A stretch of 53,653 nt of DNA from Bacteroidota bacterium (GTDB lineage: Bacteria > Bacteroidota > Ignavibacteria > UBA10030): assembly GCA_021813905.1 (NCBI GenBank), contig JAKAJH010000004.1, forward strand, positions 1 to 53,653, given 5' to 3'. Every line of letters starts with the position of its first letter. Within the stretch, counting starts at the first letter, position 1. The notes beneath the pieces are model-generated. The model was not told the origin of the DNA and ran no database searches. It saw nothing but the letters and a program-made list of their open reading frames with translations. Of this stretch, positions 42,315 through 52,548 are shown piece by piece. The position numbers and the translations under genes are program-made.

Positions 42315-42752
42315 ATGACGAAAGAAGTCTACCTCCGCCAGCTCAAAGGAAACACGCTCGTCGCAAAGGGCGGGACGAACCACTGGGTCACGCTCGACAC
42401 AAAGCCCGAGGTCGGCGGACACGCCGCGGCGACAACGCCGAAGGAACTCGTCCTTATCGGGCTTGCCGGGTGTACGTCGATGGACGTGATCCCCATTCTG
42501 CGCAAGAAGCGGGCTCCCGTCGTCGGCTATGAGTGCAACATCCGCGCGACCGAGCGGGACGAACACCCGACCGTATTCACCGCCATCCACATCGAGTACG
42601 TCATTTACGGCGACGGCGTGAAAGCCGAGGATGTGGAACGCGCCATCGATCTTTCCAGCAACAAGTATTGCGCGGTCTCGGCCATGCTGGCGGCAACGGT
42701 GCCCATCACCCATTCCTACCGGATCGAGCCGGCGGCGCGATACACCGAGTAA
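42315..42752 (+). CDS. OsmC/Ohr family peroxiredoxin-like protein
   Basis: A 145-residue OsmC-fold protein. The two redox cysteines are C53 in GLAGCTSMDVI and C119 in SSNKYCAVSAML, the positions that reduce organic hydroperoxides in Ohr/OsmC. The short N-terminus and the absence of the Ohr-specific Arg loop place it with the YhfA/OsmC-like branch. A peroxidase role is probable but not certain. It lies 36 nt after the PDO gene and 19 nt before the response regulator and is probably co-transcribed. Confidence 0.9.
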   Translation: MTKEVYLRQLKGNTLVAKGGTNHWVTLDTKPEVGGHAAATTPKELVLIGLAGCTSMDVIPILRKKRAPVVGYECNIRATERDEHPTVFTAIHIEYVIYGDGVKAEDVERAIDLSSNKYCAVSAMLAATVPITHSYRIEPAARYTE

Positions 42753-42771
42753 GAGCGCCCGAGGACCACGG

Positions 42772-44148
42772 ATGCCCGCTGATCCCTTCACCATCCTCCT
42801 CGTCGATGACGAGCGGTCGCAGCGGGAGATCCTCGCCGGATTTCTCCGGAAACAGCGATTGACGGTGCTGGAAGCGGCATCGGCGGAAGAGGCCCTTGCG
42901 GTGTTCGGGCGGCAAACGGTCGACCTGGTGCTGAGTGATTTCCGGATGCCCGGACGGAGCGGAGCAGAGCTCCTGCACGACCTGCGGGCGCGCAATGCGG
43001 AAATCACCGTGGTGCTGATGACCGCGTTCGGGACGATCGAAGGTGCCGTAGCCGCCATGCGCGACGGCGCTTACGACTATCTCACGAAGCCCGTCGATCT
43101 CGACGAGCTGAGCCATCTCATCGCGCGGATCCGCGAGCGCAACGCGCTCTTGTCCGAGAACCGGATCCTGAAGCAGCAACTCGCCGAGCGCTCGTCGTTC
43201 TCCGGCATCATCGCCTCTTCCCCCGCGATGCAGGCCGCCCTGAACACGGCGGCGCGCGTGGCAGACAGTCGCGCCCCCGTGCTGATCCGCGGCGAAAGTG
43301 GGACCGGCAAGGAACTCATCGCACGGGCCCTGCATTTCAACAGTTCCCGGCGCGACAAGCCGTTCATCGCCGTGAATTCCGCCGCCCTCAACGAAAACCT
43401 GCTCGAGAGTGAGCTGTTCGGTCACGAGCGCGGTGCATTCACCGGCGCGGACCGGCAGCGCCGCGGACGCTTCGAGATGGCGGACGGCGGGACCATCTTC
43501 CTCGACGAGATCGGCGAGATCCCCCCCGCCACGCAGGTGAAGTTGCTGCGCGTTCTGCAGGAGCAGCGATTCGAACGGGTCGGCGGGAGTGAGGCCATCT
43601 CCGTGGATGTCCGCGTGGTCGCCGCGACCAACCGGGACCTTGAGGCCGCGATCAAGACGCAGACGTTCCGGGAAGATCTGTTCTACCGGCTGAACGTCAT
43701 TCCGATCGAGCTGCCGCCGCTCCGCAAACGGCGCGAGGACATACCGGCGCTCCTCGACCACTTTCTCGCACTGTTCACAAAGGAGCAGAGGCGAAAGAAC
43801 GTGACGTTTTCACGCGAAGCGTGGGATGTACTGCTTCGGTATGATTACCCCGGGAATATCCGCGAGCTGCAGAACATCGTCCAGCGCGCGATCCTGCTGA
43901 GTCGCCGCGAGACGATCACCACCGAAGAGCTTCCCCCGTCTGTCCGTCAGTCCATCAGCGAGGCCGTCCTTCCGCCCGATGCGAGTACGCTTCCCCAACG
44001 GGTCGAGCGGCTGGAAAAAGAGATGATCCTCGAAGCCCTGCGCCGCACCAACGGCAATCAGTCGCAGGCGGCCAAGCAGCTGGGGCTCCCCGAACGGAAC
44101 CTCCGGTATCGGCTGAAGAAGTGGAAGATGGGCGGTCTGGACGACTGA
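42772..44148 (+). CDS. Sigma-54-dependent response regulator (NtrC/AtoC/ZraR family)
   Basis: A 458-residue regulator. The receiver domain (1-120) has the acidic pair in LLVDDE, phospho-acceptor D56 in SDFRMPG, and K107 in YLTKPVDL. The AAA+ domain (about 143-385) has Walker A GESGTGKE (174-181), the sigma-54-contacting GAFTGA (221-226), and Walker B GGTIFLDEIGE. The C-terminus is a Fis-type helix-turn-helix (NGNQSQAAKQLGLPERNLRY). All activator motifs are intact. The ATG at 42772 fits the receiver start. No kinase adjoins; an NtrB-like kinase lies 5 kb downstream at 49099. Confidence 0.95.
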   Translation: MPADPFTILLVDDERSQREILAGFLRKQRLTVLEAASAEEALAVFGRQTVDLVLSDFRMPGRSGAELLHDLRARNAEITVVLMTAFGTIEGAVAAMRDGAYDYLTKPVDLDELSHLIARIRERNALLSENRILKQQLAERSSFSGIIASSPAMQAALNTAARVADSRAPVLIRGESGTGKELIARALHFNSSRRDKPFIAVNSAALNENLLESELFGHERGAFTGADRQRRGRFEMADGGTIFLDEIGEIPPATQVKLLRVLQEQRFERVGGSEAISVDVRVVAATNRDLEAAIKTQTFREDLFYRLNVIPIELPPLRKRREDIPALLDHFLALFTKEQRRKNVTFSREAWDVLLRYDYPGNIRELQNIVQRAILLSRRETITTEELPPSVRQSISEAVLPPDASTLPQRVERLEKEMILEALRRTNGNQSQAAKQLGLPERNLRYRLKKWKMGGLDD

Positions 44149-44259: not shown

Positions 44260-45420
44260 TCAGAATGCCACAACGAATCCCGTGGACAGGCGATTCGTCT
44301 TGCGCTGCAGGTCGTACGTATACTCTCCGACCAACCGGACGTTGCGCGCCAGCATGTAATCGGCGCTGGCCGTCGCACTTTCGTACGCCGCCTCGGGGAC
44401 ATCCGAGCTCACACGGTTGTAAAGAAGCACACCGTACCAAGCGCTACGGTCCCCGTCCGGAGCATAGATCACTTCGGCAAAGCCTCCCTGGGTGCGCTTC
44501 AGAGCGCCGCGCGGCGTAAAGAGAGGCCGATCGTCCTCACGGAACACATACTGGGCGTTCAATTGAATCGGCGCAAGATCCAGCGTCAGATCCGGACCCG
44601 CCATCCAGACGGCGTTCACCGCATCCGATTGTTTCTCCCGACCGAAATATCCGAAGGCGCCAAGGCGGAATGACGAATTGATCTCCTGGTTCACTCGGAA
44701 CAGCATGTCTTTGTACTGATCGGTGTCAAAGCGCTTCTGCGCGTCGGCCGGCCCGATGCCGTTCCCGTTCGTGATCTCCAGCGTCACATCGGTCTTCGTC
44801 GGCAGGCCATACCGCAGCACGATGCCCCGGTCGTAGGTCAGATCCACCGTCGACTGGCCGACCGCGGTGGAATAGATGCGGTAATCCTCGATGGTCAGTC
44901 GCAGCTCCCGCTTGAAGAGCGGATCGGACTTCTGAAACTGTCCGACGGTCACGCTCAGATCGGAGCCGAACAGATGATGGAACATCACGAACGCATCCTC
45001 CATTCCGACGATTTCACCTTGCTCATTCATCAGGAAGTAAAAGTAGTAGCTGACATTCCGGCTGATCGCACCGCCCGACAACAGCTTGGCGACCCAGGGA
45101 ATCTGCACATCGGTATTGACCGGATCGTCCGGCAGCCAGGTGAGATAACCTTCAAAGCGTACCGCCAGCGGAAGCTCACGCAACAGCATCAGCTGATCGT
45201 CCCCGGTCTCGCGATACGCCCGCGGCGGTTCCTGACCCGGGAGCTGGTAGCCGTTGTTGGCGAATTCGTCGCCGAATGGCTTCAGCTTCGGGAACGGCGC
45301 GTGACACGTCGAGCACGACATGTCGTATTTCCGTGCGAAGGCGGGAATGCCGGGACTTTCATCCGTGGACACCACCACGAGCACGATCAGCGCAAGCGCG
45401 CACCGCATCACGATCTTCAT
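44260..45420 (-). CDS. Monoheme cytochrome c fused to an outer-membrane porin-like barrel (Cyc2-like)
   Basis: A 386-residue exported protein with one c-type heme motif, CSTCH (36-40), just after the signal peptide. Its flanks read IPAFARKYDM and APFPKLKPFGDEFANNGYQL. About 320 residues follow with barrel-like alternating strands (RFEGYLTWLP, YYFYFLMNE, TVDLTYDRGIVLRYG, LVGEYTYDL) and a C-terminal Phe. This is the fused cytochrome-porin plan of Cyc2 outer-membrane iron oxidases, whose heme region I recall as PxFARQTGxxCxxCH; here Q, T and G differ. The function may be electron exchange across the outer membrane, not proven iron oxidation. GAGGAGG precedes ATG 45420, 11 nt after the pentaheme gene. 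Confidence 0.75.
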   Translation of the reverse strand: MKIVMRCALALIVLVVVSTDESPGIPAFARKYDMSCSTCHAPFPKLKPFGDEFANNGYQLPGQEPPRAYRETGDDQLMLLRELPLAVRFEGYLTWLPDDPVNTDVQIPWVAKLLSGGAISRNVSYYFYFLMNEQGEIVGMEDAFVMFHHLFGSDLSVTVGQFQKSDPLFKRELRLTIEDYRIYSTAVGQSTVDLTYDRGIVLRYGLPTKTDVTLEITNGNGIGPADAQKRFDTDQYKDMLFRVNQEINSSFRLGAFGYFGREKQSDAVNAVWMAGPDLTLDLAPIQLNAQYVFREDDRPLFTPRGALKRTQGGFAEVIYAPDGDRSAWYGVLLYNRVSSDVPEAAYESATASADYMLARNVRLVGEYTYDLQRKTNRLSTGFVVAF

Positions 45421-45431
45421 GGTCTTCCTCC

Positions 45432-46790
45432 TCACAGGATCGTGATGGTGGTGCTGTGCGAGTTCACCTCCACGATGTCAGCTTCTTCCGCCGGTACGCC
45501 CAGGAACTCGACGAGCGGCCGCGGCAGCTTCTGATAGTTGAGCGTCGCCTTCACCACGACCGGTCCGGACGGGAGATTCGCCGGAAGCGACCAGGTGTAT
45601 GTTTCCAGTTTCGTTTCCCGCGGACCGATCCGGTAGTCGGGACCGAGCGATGCCGTGTTCCACTGCTGGATCGTCATGCGGCCTTGCGGGTCAAGATACG
45701 GGAGCCGGAAGATGCGGTCGCCCTCCGGGATTCCGTCACGCTGAATGCCCTTGAAGTCGGGAAGATGAAGCGGGATACCCATATCCTGATACGCCAGTGT
45801 GTTCGCTCCGATCGTGTAGTCCTCGCCGGCGAACCCTTTGCGATCGACGCGGAGCTGATACACCGTCCCCTTCGCATCCGTCGCTTCAACATGGAGCCAG
45901 ACCAGTCGTTCTTCCGCGGAACCGGTCGGGAACTTGTGCCCTGTCTTCTGGTTGAACAGCGCCACCGTGAACTTGACGCGCTCACCGGGCTCCGCCTGCC
46001 GCACATCCGGATGGACGCGAAGTTCAATGGTCCCGCGGACCTTGCCGTTATCATGCGCGCCGTGGAACAGATGCTGCGCCACGTCAGGCTGTTCGGGAGC
46101 CATCGCAGCGCTGCGCCCCGGTGCGAACGTCATGTGGCAGTGCTGGCAGGGAACGCCCTCCTTCGCGTACGGACCCTCCTTCCACTCCAGGTGCGTCGAT
46201 TTCACCCAGATGCCGTACGGATCCTTTTCGTTATGACACGTCCCGCAGAAATCGGCGGTGGTGAGGAACTCGCTCTTCCTGGTCTCATGGGCCGGCGACT
46301 TTGCCCCTTCCCGTGGTCCGTATTTCACCGTGCCGGGATCCGACACGAAATTGAAGTTGTGCGGCACATCTCCGGCATATCCTGTCACCGTATGACACAC
46401 GTCGCAGAACACCGACTCGTTGGCGCGACTGTTCGCTTCGGGCTTCGGGGGAGGAACATCGCCCGCCAGAAACGCCATCGGGGTATGACATCCGTTGCAG
46501 CCGGCCTTCACACCGGCGACCTTCGGATCGATATCCGCATGCGGAACCGCCAGCTTGAAGTACTCGATCTCATCCCATGCATGCGTGTACGCCTGCGACA
46601 TCATTGCCTGTCGCCACTGCTGATAGAAATCGATGTGACAGGACGTGCCGCAGAATTCGGGCTTCGCAAACTGATCGTAGGTCTTCGTCCCGAGAGCCTG
46701 ATCCCCCGCCACGGGGTTCTGCGCGACCGTTGGAACAGAAATGACAAGAAGAAGGACGAAGAGAGGAGAGACTGCAGTCAGGATCTTCAT
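45432..46790 (-). CDS. Pentaheme c-type cytochrome
   Basis: A 452-residue exported cytochrome. The signal peptide ends at PTVAQ. Heme-binding motifs are C47-x3-C51-H (CGTSCH, an unusual CX3CH), then CNGCH (98), CDVCH (129), CGTCH (182) and CQHCH (215). HLFHGAHDN near 240 may hold axial histidines. The C-terminal 200 residues are beta-rich with QKTGHKFPTGSAEERLVW, a block common in large multiheme cytochromes that feed or drain electrons at the cell surface. GGGAGG lies before ATG 46790. It is first in a two-gene unit with the fused cytochrome-porin. Confidence 0.88.
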   Translation of the reverse strand: MKILTAVSPLFVLLLVISVPTVAQNPVAGDQALGTKTYDQFAKPEFCGTSCHIDFYQQWRQAMMSQAYTHAWDEIEYFKLAVPHADIDPKVAGVKAGCNGCHTPMAFLAGDVPPPKPEANSRANESVFCDVCHTVTGYAGDVPHNFNFVSDPGTVKYGPREGAKSPAHETRKSEFLTTADFCGTCHNEKDPYGIWVKSTHLEWKEGPYAKEGVPCQHCHMTFAPGRSAAMAPEQPDVAQHLFHGAHDNGKVRGTIELRVHPDVRQAEPGERVKFTVALFNQKTGHKFPTGSAEERLVWLHVEATDAKGTVYQLRVDRKGFAGEDYTIGANTLAYQDMGIPLHLPDFKGIQRDGIPEGDRIFRLPYLDPQGRMTIQQWNTASLGPDYRIGPRETKLETYTWSLPANLPSGPVVVKATLNYQKLPRPLVEFLGVPAEEADIVEVNSHSTTITIL

Positions 46791-47078: not shown

Positions 47079-47094
47079 TGGCACGACGGTTGAA
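47079..47094 (+). promoter_or_regulatory. Sigma-54-type promoter before the first DGDG gene
   Basis: TGGCACG-ACGG-TTGAA: the -24 element is a perfect consensus. The -12 element matches TTG but has A where C is normal. The predicted start near 47105 is about 53 nt before the ATG at 47158. Confidence 0.45.
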
Positions 47095-47157
47095 TGGATG
47101 GTATCGGACTTGACGTCAGTCACCAGTCAAACTCAATCTCACAGCAAGGAGCAGCAC

Positions 47158-47523
47158 ATGAAACGGATTCTCGGTACAACGACGGCAATGGCGATCGCGG
47201 CATCGCTGTTCGTCCTCAGTTCGGGCAATGCCCTGGCACAAGAGAAGAGCACGCAGGCCGCACCGGCCGGCAAGACGCAGCGCGGTGCGATGTTCGTCGA
47301 CAAAGACGGCGACGGTGTGTGCGACAACTACGGAACGCACGCCGGAAAGCAGGGACAGGCGGGCATGCGCAAGGGCCACGGCCCCGGGAACGGCACAGGC
47401 AACATGGGTGTCGGACCGAAAGACGGAACCGGGTACGGCGCAAAAGCCAATGGCGTCACGGGCAACGGCACGGGCGTATGCGACGGAACGGGCCCGAAGG
47501 GATATCGCGGCGGGAAGAAGTAA
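47158..47523 (+). CDS. Small exported Gly-rich protein with DxDGDGxCD motif (1)
   Basis: A 121-residue protein of unknown function. The signal peptide is MKRILGTTTAMAIAASLFVL and on to ALAQ. A single calcium-loop-like motif FVDKDGDGVCDNYG (about 51-64) resembles EF-hand or thrombospondin type-3 repeats. A Gly/Asn/Lys-rich, low-complexity tail follows, with GNGTGNMGVGPKDGTGYG and a second Cys in GNGTGVCDGTG. The protein would be periplasmic or outside the cell and bind metal, by inference. AAGGAGC precedes the ATG. It is divergent from the cytochrome operon. Confidence 0.75.
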   Translation: MKRILGTTTAMAIAASLFVLSSGNALAQEKSTQAAPAGKTQRGAMFVDKDGDGVCDNYGTHAGKQGQAGMRKGHGPGNGTGNMGVGPKDGTGYGAKANGVTGNGTGVCDGTGPKGYRGGKK

Positions 47524-47544
47524 TCTCCGCTCGGAGCACGGATC

Positions 47545-47583
47545 GGGATGGGACCCAGGGAGGCGTCCCATCCCTTCTATTTT
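47545..47583 (+). terminator. Terminator between the two DGDG genes
   Basis: GGGATGGGAC (47545-47554) pairs perfectly with GTCCCATCCC (47565-47574), followed by TTCTATTTT. The next gene starts 12 nt later, so read-through or a separate promoter is needed for it. Confidence 0.8.
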
Positions 47584-47594
47584 CGAGGCAACCA

Positions 47595-47885
47595 ATGAAC
47601 AGGTACCTGATGGTCATGATGTTCGGAGCCCTGATCGCGCTTCCGGCCGCCGCGCAGGATTCAACGGCGACGGCTTCAAGAACACCAAAGGCGCGGATGG
47701 ATCGGTTCGTGGATTCCGACGGTGACGGCATCTGCGATCAGCGCGCCCGCGGGCTAGGGTTTCGTCGCGGCCAGTACCGGGGAACAGCGAAAGCCGCAGG
47801 CGGCACGGTGACGCCGGCAGGGACGGGTCAGACAGGCCCGACGCCGAGCACCGGACGAAAGCAGTATCACGGAGGGAAGAGATGA
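47595..47885 (+). CDS. Small exported Gly-rich protein with DxDGDGxCD motif (2)
   Basis: A 96-residue relative of the preceding product. The signal peptide is MNRYLMVMMFGALIALPAAA. The motif FVDSDGDGICDQRARG (about 38-53) matches FVDKDGDGVCDNYG of copy 1. A basic, Gly/Thr-rich tail ends in YHGGKR, where copy 1 ends in YRGGKK. The two are clear paralogues. GAGG precedes the ATG. It overlaps the outer-membrane-barrel gene by 4 nt, suggesting functional linkage. Confidence 0.72.
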   Translation: MNRYLMVMMFGALIALPAAAQDSTATASRTPKARMDRFVDSDGDGICDQRARGLGFRRGQYRGTAKAAGGTVTPAGTGQTGPTPSTGRKQYHGGKR

Positions 47886-49018
47886 ATTCGCACACCGCCC
47901 GCTTGCTGCGGGTATTCGCTGCGATCATGGTGTTCGCATTATCCGCGTTCAGTCAGGCGAGCATCGAGACGGCGTTCTCAGTCATGGCAGACGACAACAT
48001 CAACAACTCCGCCGAAGCGGTCACGGATCGGATCGCCTCGTTGTCTCTCGAGGCGGGCTACGGATGGGAATGGAACCTCTCCTCGGTTCACGCCGCGTAT
48101 CGGGGCGGCATCGATTACTACAGCGCGGTGACGGACCGGAGCTTTCTGTCTCACGCACTGACCGCCGGGTTCGCGACCGCACTGAATGAGGACGGCAGCA
48201 GCCGGATCGAAGCGACCGCCCTTGGTTTTCTGAGGTCGGGACGCGGCGAGTACCGGATCCTTGACCACCGGATCCTTTCACTGGCGCTGTCCGTGTCGCA
48301 TGAGGACGAGGGCGTGTGGTCGATCACAGGCGGATACATGATCCGCGGGCTCTCCTTTCCTGAATTCAGCACGTACGATTACAGCGAGCACGTCCTGTCC
48401 GCCCGCACCTCGTTGTTCCTTCCCACCCGCACGACCGTGATCGCCGGGGGCGATATCGGACTGAAGGTGGACGCTGCGACGGCGGCCGATTCCATGGCGA
48501 GCGGCCGGATGGCTTCCCGACGGTCATCGTTGCTTTCGTCGCTGGGCGCGGTTCAGTGGCGCGCTTCCGTCCGGATCGGTCAGGCCCTCCTGGAGAACAC
48601 CGGCCTCAGCATCTCGGCCCGCTATCAGGGAGATCTGAAGAGCGGCTCGCACACACTGGCATCGATGAGCGCACTGGTCTCCGGGGACGAATTGTTCGAC
48701 GACCGGTACGGCTACGAGGGATTCGGGTGGTCCGCCATGCTGACGCAGGCGCTTCCGTTCGACGCACGTCTCCGGGCGGTGTGGAGTCAGGAGACGAAGG
48801 CGTACGTCAGCCTCGCGGCGTACGACCTTGCCGGCACGATGATCGCGACGCATCGAAGCGACCGGCGCTCGATCGCCAGCCTTTCCTGGGAACAAGATGT
48901 GTCGTTCCTGCCGGTGTCGTTCACGCTCGTATATGAGCACATTGTCAACGCATCGAACGATCCTTACTTCTCCTACACGAACAATGCGCTCACCGTGGCG
49001 CTGGCGCTCCCGTTCTGA
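47882..49018 (+). CDS. Predicted outer-membrane beta-barrel protein
   Basis: A 378-residue exported protein of unknown function. The signal peptide is LLRVFAAIMVFALSAFSQ. The whole mature part shows alternating amphipathic strands (ASLSLEAGYGWEWNLSSVHA, LSLALSVSHE, FTLVYEHIVNAS) and ends in ALALPF with a terminal Phe, as in barrels inserted by BamA. No heme motif or plug domain is present. It is co-transcribed with the second DGDG gene through a 4-nt overlap and precedes the histidine-kinase gene. A partner role for the cytochromes is possible but unproven. Confidence 0.68.
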   Translation: MNSHTARLLRVFAAIMVFALSAFSQASIETAFSVMADDNINNSAEAVTDRIASLSLEAGYGWEWNLSSVHAAYRGGIDYYSAVTDRSFLSHALTAGFATALNEDGSSRIEATALGFLRSGRGEYRILDHRILSLALSVSHEDEGVWSITGGYMIRGLSFPEFSTYDYSEHVLSARTSLFLPTRTTVIAGGDIGLKVDAATAADSMASGRMASRRSSLLSSLGAVQWRASVRIGQALLENTGLSISARYQGDLKSGSHTLASMSALVSGDELFDDRYGYEGFGWSAMLTQALPFDARLRAVWSQETKAYVSLAAYDLAGTMIATHRSDRRSIASLSWEQDVSFLPVSFTLVYEHIVNASNDPYFSYTNNALTVALALPF

Positions 49019-49098: not shown

Positions 49099-51132
49099 AT
49101 GAAAGCCCTCCTCTCCATCCGTCCCCGGACGATCATTGCGATCAGCCTGGCGCTCACGGTGCTAATGATCGCCACCGCGGTGATCGAACTCCGTCAAAGC
49201 CGGCTGGAACTGTTTCAATTGCTCCGTGATCAGGCCACTTCGCTCGCAGAATCCATTGAACACAGCAGCCGGAACGTCGTGCGATCAACCGATCGCATCG
49301 AGGAGGGATTGGCGGAGCGCCTCCTGAACAACGCCTACTTCATCGCCCGCCTCGATTCTGCCGGGACGCTGACGCAGGCCGACCTCCAGCGGATCTGCAG
49401 CGCGAATCAGATCTTTCGCATCAACATCTTCGACCGGCGAGGACGACGGGTTGTCGGCAACATCAATCCGCTGACGGAACACACGGGGCGCAGGCCGTTG
49501 CACACGCCGGCCGGGATGCTGGGCCCCATCCTCAACGGCACCACCGACCACCTGATCATCGGACTCAAGGAGTCGCGTTTCGGCGAAGGCCAGCGTTTTG
49601 CCGTGGCTGTGCGGCGCACCGGACGCCGCTCGGGAGCGATCGCGCTGAACCTGAATATCGACCAGCTCACCGAACTCAGAAGGACCATCGGCATCGGTCG
49701 ATTAATGAAGGATCTGGGCAACAATCCGGGCATCGAATACGCGGCGCTCCAGGACCGGCAGGGCATCATCGCAGCCAACGGCCAGGTCACGGAAATGACC
49801 GCCATCGATGCGGATCCGCAGATCCAATCCGCGCTGACGATGGACACGACGCTGACGCGCGTGACGACCATCGCCGGACGGGAGGTGTTCGAGGTGATCC
49901 GTCCCTTCCGAATGGGCGAAGACTTGGACGGCGTCCTCCGCATCGGTCTTTCGATGGATCCGGTTCGTTCCGCTGAGATCCGAATGCAGCGGAGGGTACT
50001 CGTGATGTCGATCATCACGCTGGTCATCGGCGCGCTGGTAATGACCGTGATCGTCGCCGGTCAGAACGCACGGATGGCACAGGAGCGCATCCATCGGGTT
50101 GAGACGTTCACCGGGCATGTCCTGGCGGAGATGCGCGATGCCGTCGTCGTTGTGGATCAGCGGTCCATGGTGACCATCTTCAACCATGAGGCGGAAGTGC
50201 TCTTTGGTGAGCCGGCGGAGCACGCGGTCGGTCGAAGCGTGGAGGAACTCTTCCACGGACCCCACGCCGCACTTGCCGGCGCGTTTGCACATGCCGCTGC
50301 GGCGCGCGAACTGATCCTACCATCGCCTGACGGACCGCGCGTCCTATCGGTCTCGGTCTCCGAGAACCGCTCCGCGAGCGGAATCGTCGAGAGCCGCACA
50401 GCCGTCATCCGCGATCTGACAGAACAGCGGCGCCTGCAGGAAGAGCTTCAACGGAAAGAGCGGTACAGTGCAATGGGAGAGCTCGCCGCAGCCGTGGCAC
50501 ACGAGATACGCAATCCCCTGAACGCCATCGGGATGATCGGACAGCGCTTTGCGAAGGAGTTCCGGCCGGTCCGCGGCGTCCGGGAATATCAGAAGATCAC
50601 CGACGTGCTCGTCCGCGAGTCGCGACGGGTGAACGCCATCATCGAGCAATTCCTGCGGTTCGCGCGCCCTCCGCGTCTGCACCCGCAACAGGTCGACGTC
50701 GGACCCTGGCTCAATGGCCTCAGCACACTCTTTGCCACCGATGCAAAAGCGAAGCACGTGCGCTTTTCGTCCCAAGCAGCCACGGGGTATGGTGTGTTCG
50801 ATCACGACCTCATGACGCAGGTCGTCCTGAACGTGCTTCGCAACGCGCTGGAGGCTACGCCGCGCGGCGGATCGATTCGTCTTTCCTCGTCCGTTTCGTC
50901 TGACGTGTTGCGCGTCGTCGTGACGGACAGCGGCAGCGGTATCGCTCCCGACGTCCTGCCGAAAATTTTCGATCCGTATTTCACCACGAAGTCCGGTGGA
51001 ACGGGACTCGGACTTCCCATTGCGCACCGGATCGTCACACAACACAACGGAGAGATTTCCATCGAGAGTCCGAGTGGTACCGGTACCACGGTCACCATCC
51101 GCATCCCCGTTGCTTCTTCCTCAGCCGGTTGA
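49099..51132 (+). CDS. Membrane sensor histidine kinase (NtrB/AtoS/ZraS-like)
   Basis: A 677-residue sensor kinase. TM1 lies at about 11-28 and TM2 at about 298-320 (VLVMSIITLVIGALVMTVIVAG), enclosing a 270-residue extracytoplasmic sensor domain. A PAS domain follows (about 333-440, DAVVVVDQRSMVTIFNHEAE). The HisKA box has H468 in AAAVAHEIRNPLNAIG. The ATPase domain has NVLRNALEAT (N box), DSGSGIAPD (G1) and GTGLGLPIAH (G2). This arrangement pairs with sigma-54 response regulators, and the one at 42772 is the only candidate nearby. The ATG at 49099 follows the barrel gene by 80 nt. Confidence 0.93.
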   Translation: MKALLSIRPRTIIAISLALTVLMIATAVIELRQSRLELFQLLRDQATSLAESIEHSSRNVVRSTDRIEEGLAERLLNNAYFIARLDSAGTLTQADLQRICSANQIFRINIFDRRGRRVVGNINPLTEHTGRRPLHTPAGMLGPILNGTTDHLIIGLKESRFGEGQRFAVAVRRTGRRSGAIALNLNIDQLTELRRTIGIGRLMKDLGNNPGIEYAALQDRQGIIAANGQVTEMTAIDADPQIQSALTMDTTLTRVTTIAGREVFEVIRPFRMGEDLDGVLRIGLSMDPVRSAEIRMQRRVLVMSIITLVIGALVMTVIVAGQNARMAQERIHRVETFTGHVLAEMRDAVVVVDQRSMVTIFNHEAEVLFGEPAEHAVGRSVEELFHGPHAALAGAFAHAAAARELILPSPDGPRVLSVSVSENRSASGIVESRTAVIRDLTEQRRLQEELQRKERYSAMGELAAAVAHEIRNPLNAIGMIGQRFAKEFRPVRGVREYQKITDVLVRESRRVNAIIEQFLRFARPPRLHPQQVDVGPWLNGLSTLFATDAKAKHVRFSSQAATGYGVFDHDLMTQVVLNVLRNALEATPRGGSIRLSSSVSSDVLRVVVTDSGSGIAPDVLPKIFDPYFTTKSGGTGLGLPIAHRIVTQHNGEISIESPSGTGTTVTIRIPVASSSAG

Positions 51133-51223
51133 CCGCAGTTCCGGATCCTCGCTCACGTTTTCCCGACCGCAGGAATTCGCATCGGCGAATGTCCGTTTCC
51201 GAGCCGGTTTTCGGTCACGCGTA

Positions 51224-51239
51224 CGGCACAGACATTGTT
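51224..51239 (+). promoter_or_regulatory. Weak sigma-54-like promoter before the thioredoxin-like gene
   Basis: CGGCACA-GACA-TTGTT: GG at the -24 position is kept, and the -12 element has TTGTT in place of TTGCT. It lies 43 nt before the ATG at 51282. Confidence 0.3.
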
Positions 51240-51281
51240 TTTTCCTCACCCACAGGCTATCCAATTGAAAGAGCACCCGAA

Positions 51282-51530
51282 ATGAACATTGAAGTTCTGG
51301 GTTCCGGTTGTCCGAACTGTCAGACCCTCGAGCGACGCACGCGTGAGGCACTCGCCGAGCTCCACCTTGACGCCACAATCGAAAAAGTTCAGGACATGCA
51401 GGCCATCGTGTCGTACGGTGTCATGCGCACTCCCTGCCTTGTGATCGACGGCCGTGTGGTGATTCAGGGGGCAGTCCCGAAAGTCGACGCCCTGAAAGAG
51501 CTCCTGACAAAACACGCGGGAGCGCGCTGA
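51282..51530 (+). CDS. Small thioredoxin-fold redox protein (CPNC)
   Basis: An 82-residue thioredoxin/glutaredoxin-like protein of the 'redox-active disulfide protein' (thioredoxin_3) group. The active site CPNC is at residues 10-13 of MNIEVLGSGCPNCQTLERRT, and the cis-Pro is in VMRTPCLVIDG, next to a third Cys. Such proteins accompany DUF318-type permeases. The ATG at 51282 fits the family start; the frame upstream lacks conserved features. It is separated from the permease gene by 1 nt, so the pair is almost certainly one functional unit. Confidence 0.9.
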   Translation: MNIEVLGSGCPNCQTLERRTREALAELHLDATIEKVQDMQAIVSYGVMRTPCLVIDGRVVIQGAVPKVDALKELLTKHAGAR

Positions 51531-51531
51531 C

Positions 51532-52548
51532 ATGGCGCGGTTCCGATCCCTCACGGTCGCGGGGGGCGCGCTTCTGCTCTGGGCAGTCGTTTACGCCTTC
51601 CTGCAGTCCGGCGTCGACGCGCTCATCGCGGGGCTCCACATTCCGCTCTCCGAGCGCTGGGGCACGGCGGTGGCGTTCTTTGTGTATGAAGCGCCGAAAG
51701 TGCTCCTCTTGCTGACGCTGGTGGTCTTTCTCGTCGGCATTGTGCGAACGTATTTCTCGCCCGCCCGGACGCGGCGGATGCTCGGGAACCGCTCGCCGTT
51801 CATCGGCAATGTGCTGGCAAGCATGCTGGGCATCGTCACGCCGTTCTGTTCCTGCTCGGCTGTTCCGCTCTTCATCGGATTCGTCGAGGGCGGTATTCCG
51901 CTCGGTGTCACGTTCTCGTTCCTGATCGCGGCGCCGATGATCAATGAAGTCGCGGTCGTGCTGCTTCTGGGGCTGTTCGGATGGCAGACGGCTCTTCTCT
52001 ACGTTGTGACCGGTCTGTTCATTGCCATCATCGCCGGTGCGGCGATCGGACGGATGTCAATGGAACGGCATGTCGAGCCATGGGTGTATGAGGTCCGCGC
52101 GACGGACGCCGGTGAAGAGGCGTCACTCTCTCCCGATGATCGGGTGGACGCCGCGGCGCAGTCGGTGCGTGAGATTGTGGGGCGCGTTTGGCCGTATCTG
52201 CTTGCGGGCATTGCCATCGGATCCCTCATTCACGGGTACGTGCCGGAGCAGTTCATGGCCGGTCTGATGGGCCGAACGGCCTGGTGGGCCGTTCCGGCGG
52301 CGGTGTTGCTGGGTGTTCCTCTCTACTCCAATGCGGCAGGAATCATCCCGATCGTGCAGGCGCTCCTGTCCAAAGGCGCGGCCCTGGGCACCACGCTGGC
52401 CTTCATGATGTCGGTCATTGGCCTTTCGTTGCCGGAAGTGATCATTCTTCGGAAAGTACTCCGCCCCCCGCTGATCGCCGCGTTCGTGGGTGTCGTGGCG
52501 GTCGGAATTGTTATTGTCGGATATTTCTTTAATTTTGTCCTGGGGTAG
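51532..52548 (+). CDS. Permease of the DUF318/UPF0718 (YraQ/ArsP-like) family
   Basis: A 338-residue inner-membrane permease with about 8-10 helices in two repeats. The first repeat carries TPFCSCSAVPLFIGFVEGGI (C106, C108), the signature CxCS-VP motif, and FSFLIAAPMINE. The second repeat has GVPLYSNAAGIIPIVQALLS. Related proteins export organoarsenicals (ArsP) or metal ions. A charged central loop (about 180-215) separates the halves. The adjoining CPNC protein may deliver electrons or a metal-thiol species. The substrate is unknown here. Confidence 0.88.
   Translation: MARFRSLTVAGGALLLWAVVYAFLQSGVDALIAGLHIPLSERWGTAVAFFVYEAPKVLLLLTLVVFLVGIVRTYFSPARTRRMLGNRSPFIGNVLASMLGIVTPFCSCSAVPLFIGFVEGGIPLGVTFSFLIAAPMINEVAVVLLLGLFGWQTALLYVVTGLFIAIIAGAAIGRMSMERHVEPWVYEVRATDAGEEASLSPDDRVDAAAQSVREIVGRVWPYLLAGIAIGSLIHGYVPEQFMAGLMGRTAWWAVPAAVLLGVPLYSNAAGIIPIVQALLSKGAALGTTLAFMMSVIGLSLPEVIILRKVLRPPLIAAFVGVVAVGIVIVGYFFNFVLG

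Follow-up and report, generated by a model that had tools for sequence, protein, structure and literature searches.

Biochemically tested Cyc2 proteins oxidize Fe(II), the potential of the Cyc2 heme is near +200 mV, and Cyc2 homologs serve as metagenomic markers of iron oxidation. Under the published definition (PMC8406198), Cyc2 has the motif AXPXFAR[Q/K][T/Y] five residues before a CXXCH heme motif and PXL four residues after it, exceeds 365 residues in length, and contains a porin of 16 strands; OprP and OprO are the porins named for Cyc2 by its authors. Cyc2-like genes have already been reported in the phyla that concern us here (PMC6344600, PMC7005843, PMC9769843), mostly as members of cluster III in PMC9769843. 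This cluster is the one whose function has been called most uncertain by those who described it; some of its homologs come from phyla without known iron oxidizers, and the FeGenie label for it reads 'probable iron oxidation and possible iron reduction'. Another relevant system is the Geobacter ExtHIJKL conduit, which has a role in the reduction of Fe(III), Mn(IV), and selenite/tellurite (PMC6148476, PMC5877670, PMC11976967), and whose ExtKL belongs, with cytochromes of cable bacteria, to the PHC family of pentaheme cytochromes (PMC11976967).

The window analyzed here is a stretch of 53,653 nucleotides from a Bacteroidota bacterium of the class Ignavibacteria (contig JAKAJH010000004.1, positions 1 to 53,653). 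The first-pass annotation had placed a fused cytochrome-porin with one CSTCH motif at 44260–45420, and we confirmed both the open reading frame and its coordinates, on the minus strand. This Cyc2-like monoheme cytochrome-porin gene (44260..45420, minus strand; 386 aa, supported by the ORF and an alignment of 78 orthologs) has its best start at ATG 45420 and a stop codon ending at 44260, and the start is preceded by a ribosome-binding site, GGAGGA, of the AGGAGG type (45426..45431, minus strand), read from the sequence within an 11-base intergenic gap. The N-terminus contains a hydrophobic stretch, and residues 2–17 form a helix in the structural model. The signature IPAFARKY (residues 25–32; 45325..45348, minus strand) fits PXFAR[Q/K][T/Y] of PMC8406198 and is conserved in the orthologs, the leading A of AXPXFAR being G in the window porin and A in most of them. 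It is followed by CSTCH, the sole CXXCH motif of the protein (residues 36–40; 45301..45315, minus strand), and, four residues on, by PKL; the sequences around the heme motif are IPAFARKYDMS on the N-terminal side and FPKLKPFGDEFANNGYQL on the C-terminal side. In the 78 orthologs, which go under many phylum names, the cysteines and the histidine of CXXCH (C36, C39, H40) are invariant, and so are P26, A29, R30, P44, and L46. With its 386 residues the protein also exceeds the length given for Cyc2. The replacement of RQTG by RKYD had earlier been taken for a change of residues relative to Cyc2, but RKY lies inside the published consensus AXPXFAR[Q/K][T/Y] (PMC8406198), and because this consensus allows both K and Y, it is no departure from Cyc2. 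A chance CXXCH could be ruled out, as orthologs from many phyla all retain the motif, and an ordinary porin could be ruled out on the heme domain. The window porin had no Pfam family above the cut-off, no NCBIfam match, and no PDB sequence match.

Of the 100 relatives of the window genome, about 20 carried full-length orthologs of the porin, with 47–61% identity. Among the best 80 of at least 535 relatives kept from a scan of named genomes were representatives of Ignavibacteriota, Bacteroidota, Acidobacteriota, Aminicenantes and Saccharicenans, Zixibacteria, Calditrichota, Kryptoniota, KSB1, Glassbacteria, Neomarinimicrobiota, and others, these names being labels on metagenome bins, some of which may be wrong.

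The first gene of the pair (45432..46790, minus strand) encodes a 452-aa pentaheme cytochrome of the PHC/c552/ExtKL type with four CXXCH motifs and one CX3CH motif. As read from the motifs, heme 1 is bound by CX3CH (CGTSCH; 46635..46652, minus strand) and hemes 2–5 by CNGCH, CDVCH, CGTCH, and CQHCH (46134..46499, minus strand); the first motif has six letters in 52 of 69 homologs and five in 17, some of them N-terminally cut. A profile of the protein led to the pentaheme cytochrome c552 of Thermochromatium tepidum, and its structural model (pLDDT 87) matched that cytochrome (PDB 5ZE8) over 343 residues with Z 24.6 and 26% identity. The fold is thus shared with c552, but the first heme motif of the partner is CX3CH. 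The structure model and fold match also delineated a C-terminal beta-rich, Ig-like domain (residues 249–452; 45435..46046, minus strand). In its five heme motifs, c552 fold, and Ig-like C-terminal domain, the partner agrees with the PHC/c552 family, while its score with the ExtKL equivalog model NF040886 (NCBIfam) was 44.7 bits against a cut-off of 250.

The pentaheme gene lies directly upstream of the porin gene, with 11 bases between its stop and ATG 45420. Of the 70 named loci whose upstream sequence extended over 1 kb or more, 69 had the same cytochrome directly upstream of the porin, under many phylum names; the 69 comprise 67 intact ORFs and two loci (L060 and L107) with heme motifs in a broken frame. 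At locus L077 the partner was not upstream, and a search of the whole genome gave no partner match at E 1e-10 either. Moreover, of 101 genomes (that of the window and 100 relatives), 22 contained both porin and partner and none contained only one of them, when partner matches better than about E 1e-50 were counted and a contig-end fragment in G086 was left out, even though the wider neighborhood of the pair differs between genomes. An outer-membrane electron-transfer path including the pentaheme cytochrome had been put forward as a possibility, and it is strengthened by this near-fixed gene order and by the perfect co-occurrence in the sampled relatives. The mean pairwise identity was 0.66 for the partner versus 0.51 for the porin, and the distances of the two proteins correlated over 62 loci (r 0.68 versus at most 0.25 in 2000 permutations), as they would also from shared descent alone. 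Both genes of the pair contain stop codons at L107 (genome G042), which may reflect either joint decay or faulty assembly.

An AlphaFold2 model of the porin, built from the alignment of the 78 orthologs (A2), predicted a 16-strand beta-barrel formed by residues 86–385 (44266..45165, minus strand; pLDDT 84, pTM 0.81), as in the 16-strand outer-membrane barrel of Cyc2. The closest solved structures were OprP (Z 25.6) and OprO (Z 25.5), with general porins close behind OprP (Z 23–24). As general porins are nearly equal in score, the match with OprP/OprO indicates the fold class and not the substrate. A structure without a closed barrel would have spoken against the first-pass annotation; the model instead shows 16 predicted strands, with OprP and OprO as best matches. 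The loop between strands 5 and 6, which occupies the L3 position, that of the constriction loop in porins (residues 164–195; 44836..44931, minus strand; from alignment and model), carries the residues D166, P167, K170, R171, E172, R174, D179, Y180, and Y183, all invariant or nearly so. The conservation of inward- and outward-facing barrel residues differed only modestly (p 0.016), and we give this difference no weight. The plug and the heme motif region were modeled with low confidence (about 50–75) and the heme is absent from the model, and thus we infer, rather than read from the model, where the heme sits in the barrel.

The window porin resembles Cyc2 and Cyt572 (McAllister 2020; Keffer 2021) in its signature, single CXXCH, PXL, length, 16 strands, and OprP/OprO as best matches. 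It differs from the Cyc2 references used here in belonging to a separate clade, in a barrel that cannot be aligned past the first strand, in the residues after the heme (G[DE]xF in the window family versus GRxFK in Cyc2), and in its partner, which is a pentaheme cytochrome, in contrast to the small c-type cytochrome at classic cyc2 loci; such a small cytochrome was found near all seven plasmid cyc2 copies. The comparison was made with 12 Cyc2 references of green-sulfur-like and proteobacterial kind. They came from a Chlorobiaceae-like family, from a genus of the window's class, and from plasmids, most of the plasmid copies having been retrieved with a short query based on the known motif; they took the place of Cyc2 from Mariprofundus, Gallionella, chromosomal A. 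ferrooxidans, and Leptospirillum, and cluster 3 is not represented among them. A tree of 43 rows contained these references together with the window family (A) and a second local type (B), and no ordinary porins; each of the three groups was set off from the rest by a branch with 100/99 support, on a weak alignment of the barrel. The profile of A matched that of the Cyc2 references with 98.7% probability, but over no more than 116 columns, all N-terminal, in which the heme domain and the first strand could be aligned; the profiles of A and B align over their full length. Clearly, the heme domain is common to A and Cyc2, and the barrel is of the KY-type lineage. The first-pass reading of a divergent Cyc2 relative is supported, and the KY clade stands apart from the obtained Cyc2 references with full support. 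A phylogeny pointing to an ordinary porin with a chance CxxCH did not emerge: tree and profiles group the protein with CXXCH-bearing cytochrome-porins, and its heme motif is invariant.

Classic FARQTG-type Cyc2 genes were seen at three loci (L146–L148) of one genus of the window's own class; a search of viral contigs for FARQTG, the classic Cyc2 pattern, found none. Additionally, a second, larger family of KY-type cytochrome-porins (about 417–465 aa, FARKYKTSCATCHNGFPKLNAFGEAFRRNGY; L024, L025, L027–L031) is common in the same order. No multiheme gene was found within 1.5 kb of these genes, and no pentaheme gene of the partner kind within the same distance at the B- and C-type loci L024–L031. 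As to Cyc2 cluster 3, homologs from the same phyla as those of the window family have been placed there (PMC9769843), and one of our loci (L104) is from the Calditrichota genome Dive96_bin3.89, apparently from that study. The passages on cluster 3 that we consulted mention no pentaheme partner.

The window genome (G000, listed as 100% complete) gave one heme-copper oxidase match, a quinol-type nitric oxide reductase; cytochrome bd is present, and no NarG was found in it. On another contig of this genome (C54, locus L171), genes for an ExtP-like cytochrome b, a Rieske protein, and cytochromes with 19, 6, and 11 hemes lie together, and many more paired heme motifs follow downstream in this cluster. 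This set of genes fits an organism feeding multiheme cytochromes from the quinone pool. No heme-copper oxidase was found in G037, another genome with the pair that is listed as complete. A lack of O2-reducing heme-copper oxidases in all bearers of the pair was ruled out, as many relatives, one of the same genus included, carry oxidase-type heme-copper genes.

Taken together, gene order, co-occurrence, heme motifs, the predicted 16-strand barrel, and the partner fold make an electron conduit well supported by its anatomy, and the pair suggests a widespread route by which electrons leave the cell envelope. The contact between the two proteins, the direction of electron flow, and the substrate are further steps that we infer. 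On balance, we consider it somewhat probable that the pair is one outer-membrane electron conduit which most likely works outward and does not serve Fe(II) oxidation. From the periplasmic pentaheme cytochrome, electrons would move to the porin's only heme, which would sit on the N-terminal plug at the periplasmic mouth of the barrel, and there pass on to a small acceptor where the pore narrows. Outward flow would then allow for the reduction of small or chelated extracellular acceptors, e.g., Fe(III) chelates, humic quinones, or oxyanions. Two observations favor this direction: in Geobacter the partner family is part of a conduit that works reductively (PMC6148476, PMC5877670), and the window genome shows no heme-copper cytochrome c oxidase. 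In the many relatives with oxidase-type heme-copper genes, however, the pair may have an oxidative role.

The opposite direction, in which the porin would be an Fe(II) oxidase like Cyc2, with Fe2+ entering the pore and reducing the plug heme, and the pentaheme cytochrome carrying the electrons inward, appears unlikely to us. The Cyc2 signature, fold, and plug arrangement are shared, cluster III Cyc2 homologs have been reported from several of the same phyla (PMC9769843), and heme-copper oxidase genes occur in many pair-bearing relatives. However, the fully supported clade apart from the Cyc2 references, and a c552-type multiheme cytochrome in the place of the small c-type cytochrome usual near cyc2, one moreover whose T. 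tepidum relative has been described as low-potential, argue against this role. So do the oxidase complements of the window genome, in which no O2-reducing cytochrome c oxidase was found, and of G037, without a detected heme-copper oxidase, and the possibly reductive function that FeGenie allows for Cyc2 cluster 3. Alternatively, the pair could be an oxyanion-reducing system, with an OprP/OprO-like pore admitting selenite, tellurite, arsenate, or similar oxyanions for reduction by the cytochromes, as proposed for Geobacter ExtI/ExtKL. The top fold matches of the porin, the invariant K, R, and D in which its L3-position loop is rich, the membership of the partner in the ExtKL family, with the loss of ExtI impairing selenite/tellurite reduction (PMC5877670), and the ExtP-like cytochrome b in the genome are all in line with this. 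ExtI, too, is an outer-membrane barrel, with a weak likeness to OprO/OprP, and its gene adjoins that of a pentaheme cytochrome from the broad family to which the partner belongs. Nevertheless, ExtI was reported without a heme motif and in an ext cluster, whereas the window porin has such a motif, lacks an NCBIfam match, and lies in a different neighborhood, where the remaining ext genes are not beside the pair and no other ext-type genes were recognized as its conserved neighbors. General porins, moreover, nearly equal OprP in score. We regard an oxyanion-reducing system as rather improbable.

The least probable explanation, to which we give little credence, is that of an ordinary porin using its heme for gating or anchoring, with a partner that only aids assembly and no electrons crossing the membrane. 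The barrel resembles general porins, and a single heme does not make a membrane-spanning heme chain, but gating alone hardly accounts for a fixed five-heme partner that is inherited along with the porin in different phyla. Conduits such as MtrAB, MtoAB, and OmbB-OmaB likewise combine a porin with a multiheme cytochrome; unlike in the pair described here, their barrel is large (26 strands in MtrAB) and has no heme of its own, and a multiheme wire is inserted into it. The outward conduit that we prefer would be a compact one, with one heme in a 16-strand porin that carries it itself, fed by a small multiheme cytochrome.

Pair-bearing homologs are counted among the Cyc2 markers of iron oxidation in metagenomes. 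In the open-access literature we found no description of a KY-type porin with a near-fixed pentaheme partner, an absence that is weak evidence of novelty. The near-fixed multiheme partner gives such homologs a testable role, possibly in the direction opposite to that of iron oxidation, and a pentaheme gene directly upstream is a rule by which the clade can be separated from classic cyc2 in genomes. We tentatively suggest, while considering it less probable than the conduit itself, that the KY-type porin and pentaheme cytochrome form an undescribed, cross-phylum class of outer-membrane electron outlets, and that many of the Cyc2 homologs now taken as signs of iron oxidation in these phyla are members of this class and serve to export electrons instead.

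In the window, the pair is flanked by genes for an NtrC-type sigma-54 response regulator (42631–44148, plus strand) and a histidine kinase (49099–51132, plus strand), homologs of which are near the pair in L033 and L036 and which may regulate it; matches in a search for sigma-54 promoters were no commoner than expected by chance. Between the pair and the histidine kinase (47090–47885, plus strand) are the genes for two small proteins, predicted to be secreted, which have glycine-rich tails and a DxDGDGxCD motif. The histidine kinase gene is adjoined by that for a predicted protein (47882–49018, plus strand) that matches Pfam SlipAM with 24.3 bits versus a cut-off of 22, and homologs of this protein are near the pair in some relatives. 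Farther along, a thioredoxin-like protein is encoded beside an ArsP-type permease (51129–52548, plus strand).
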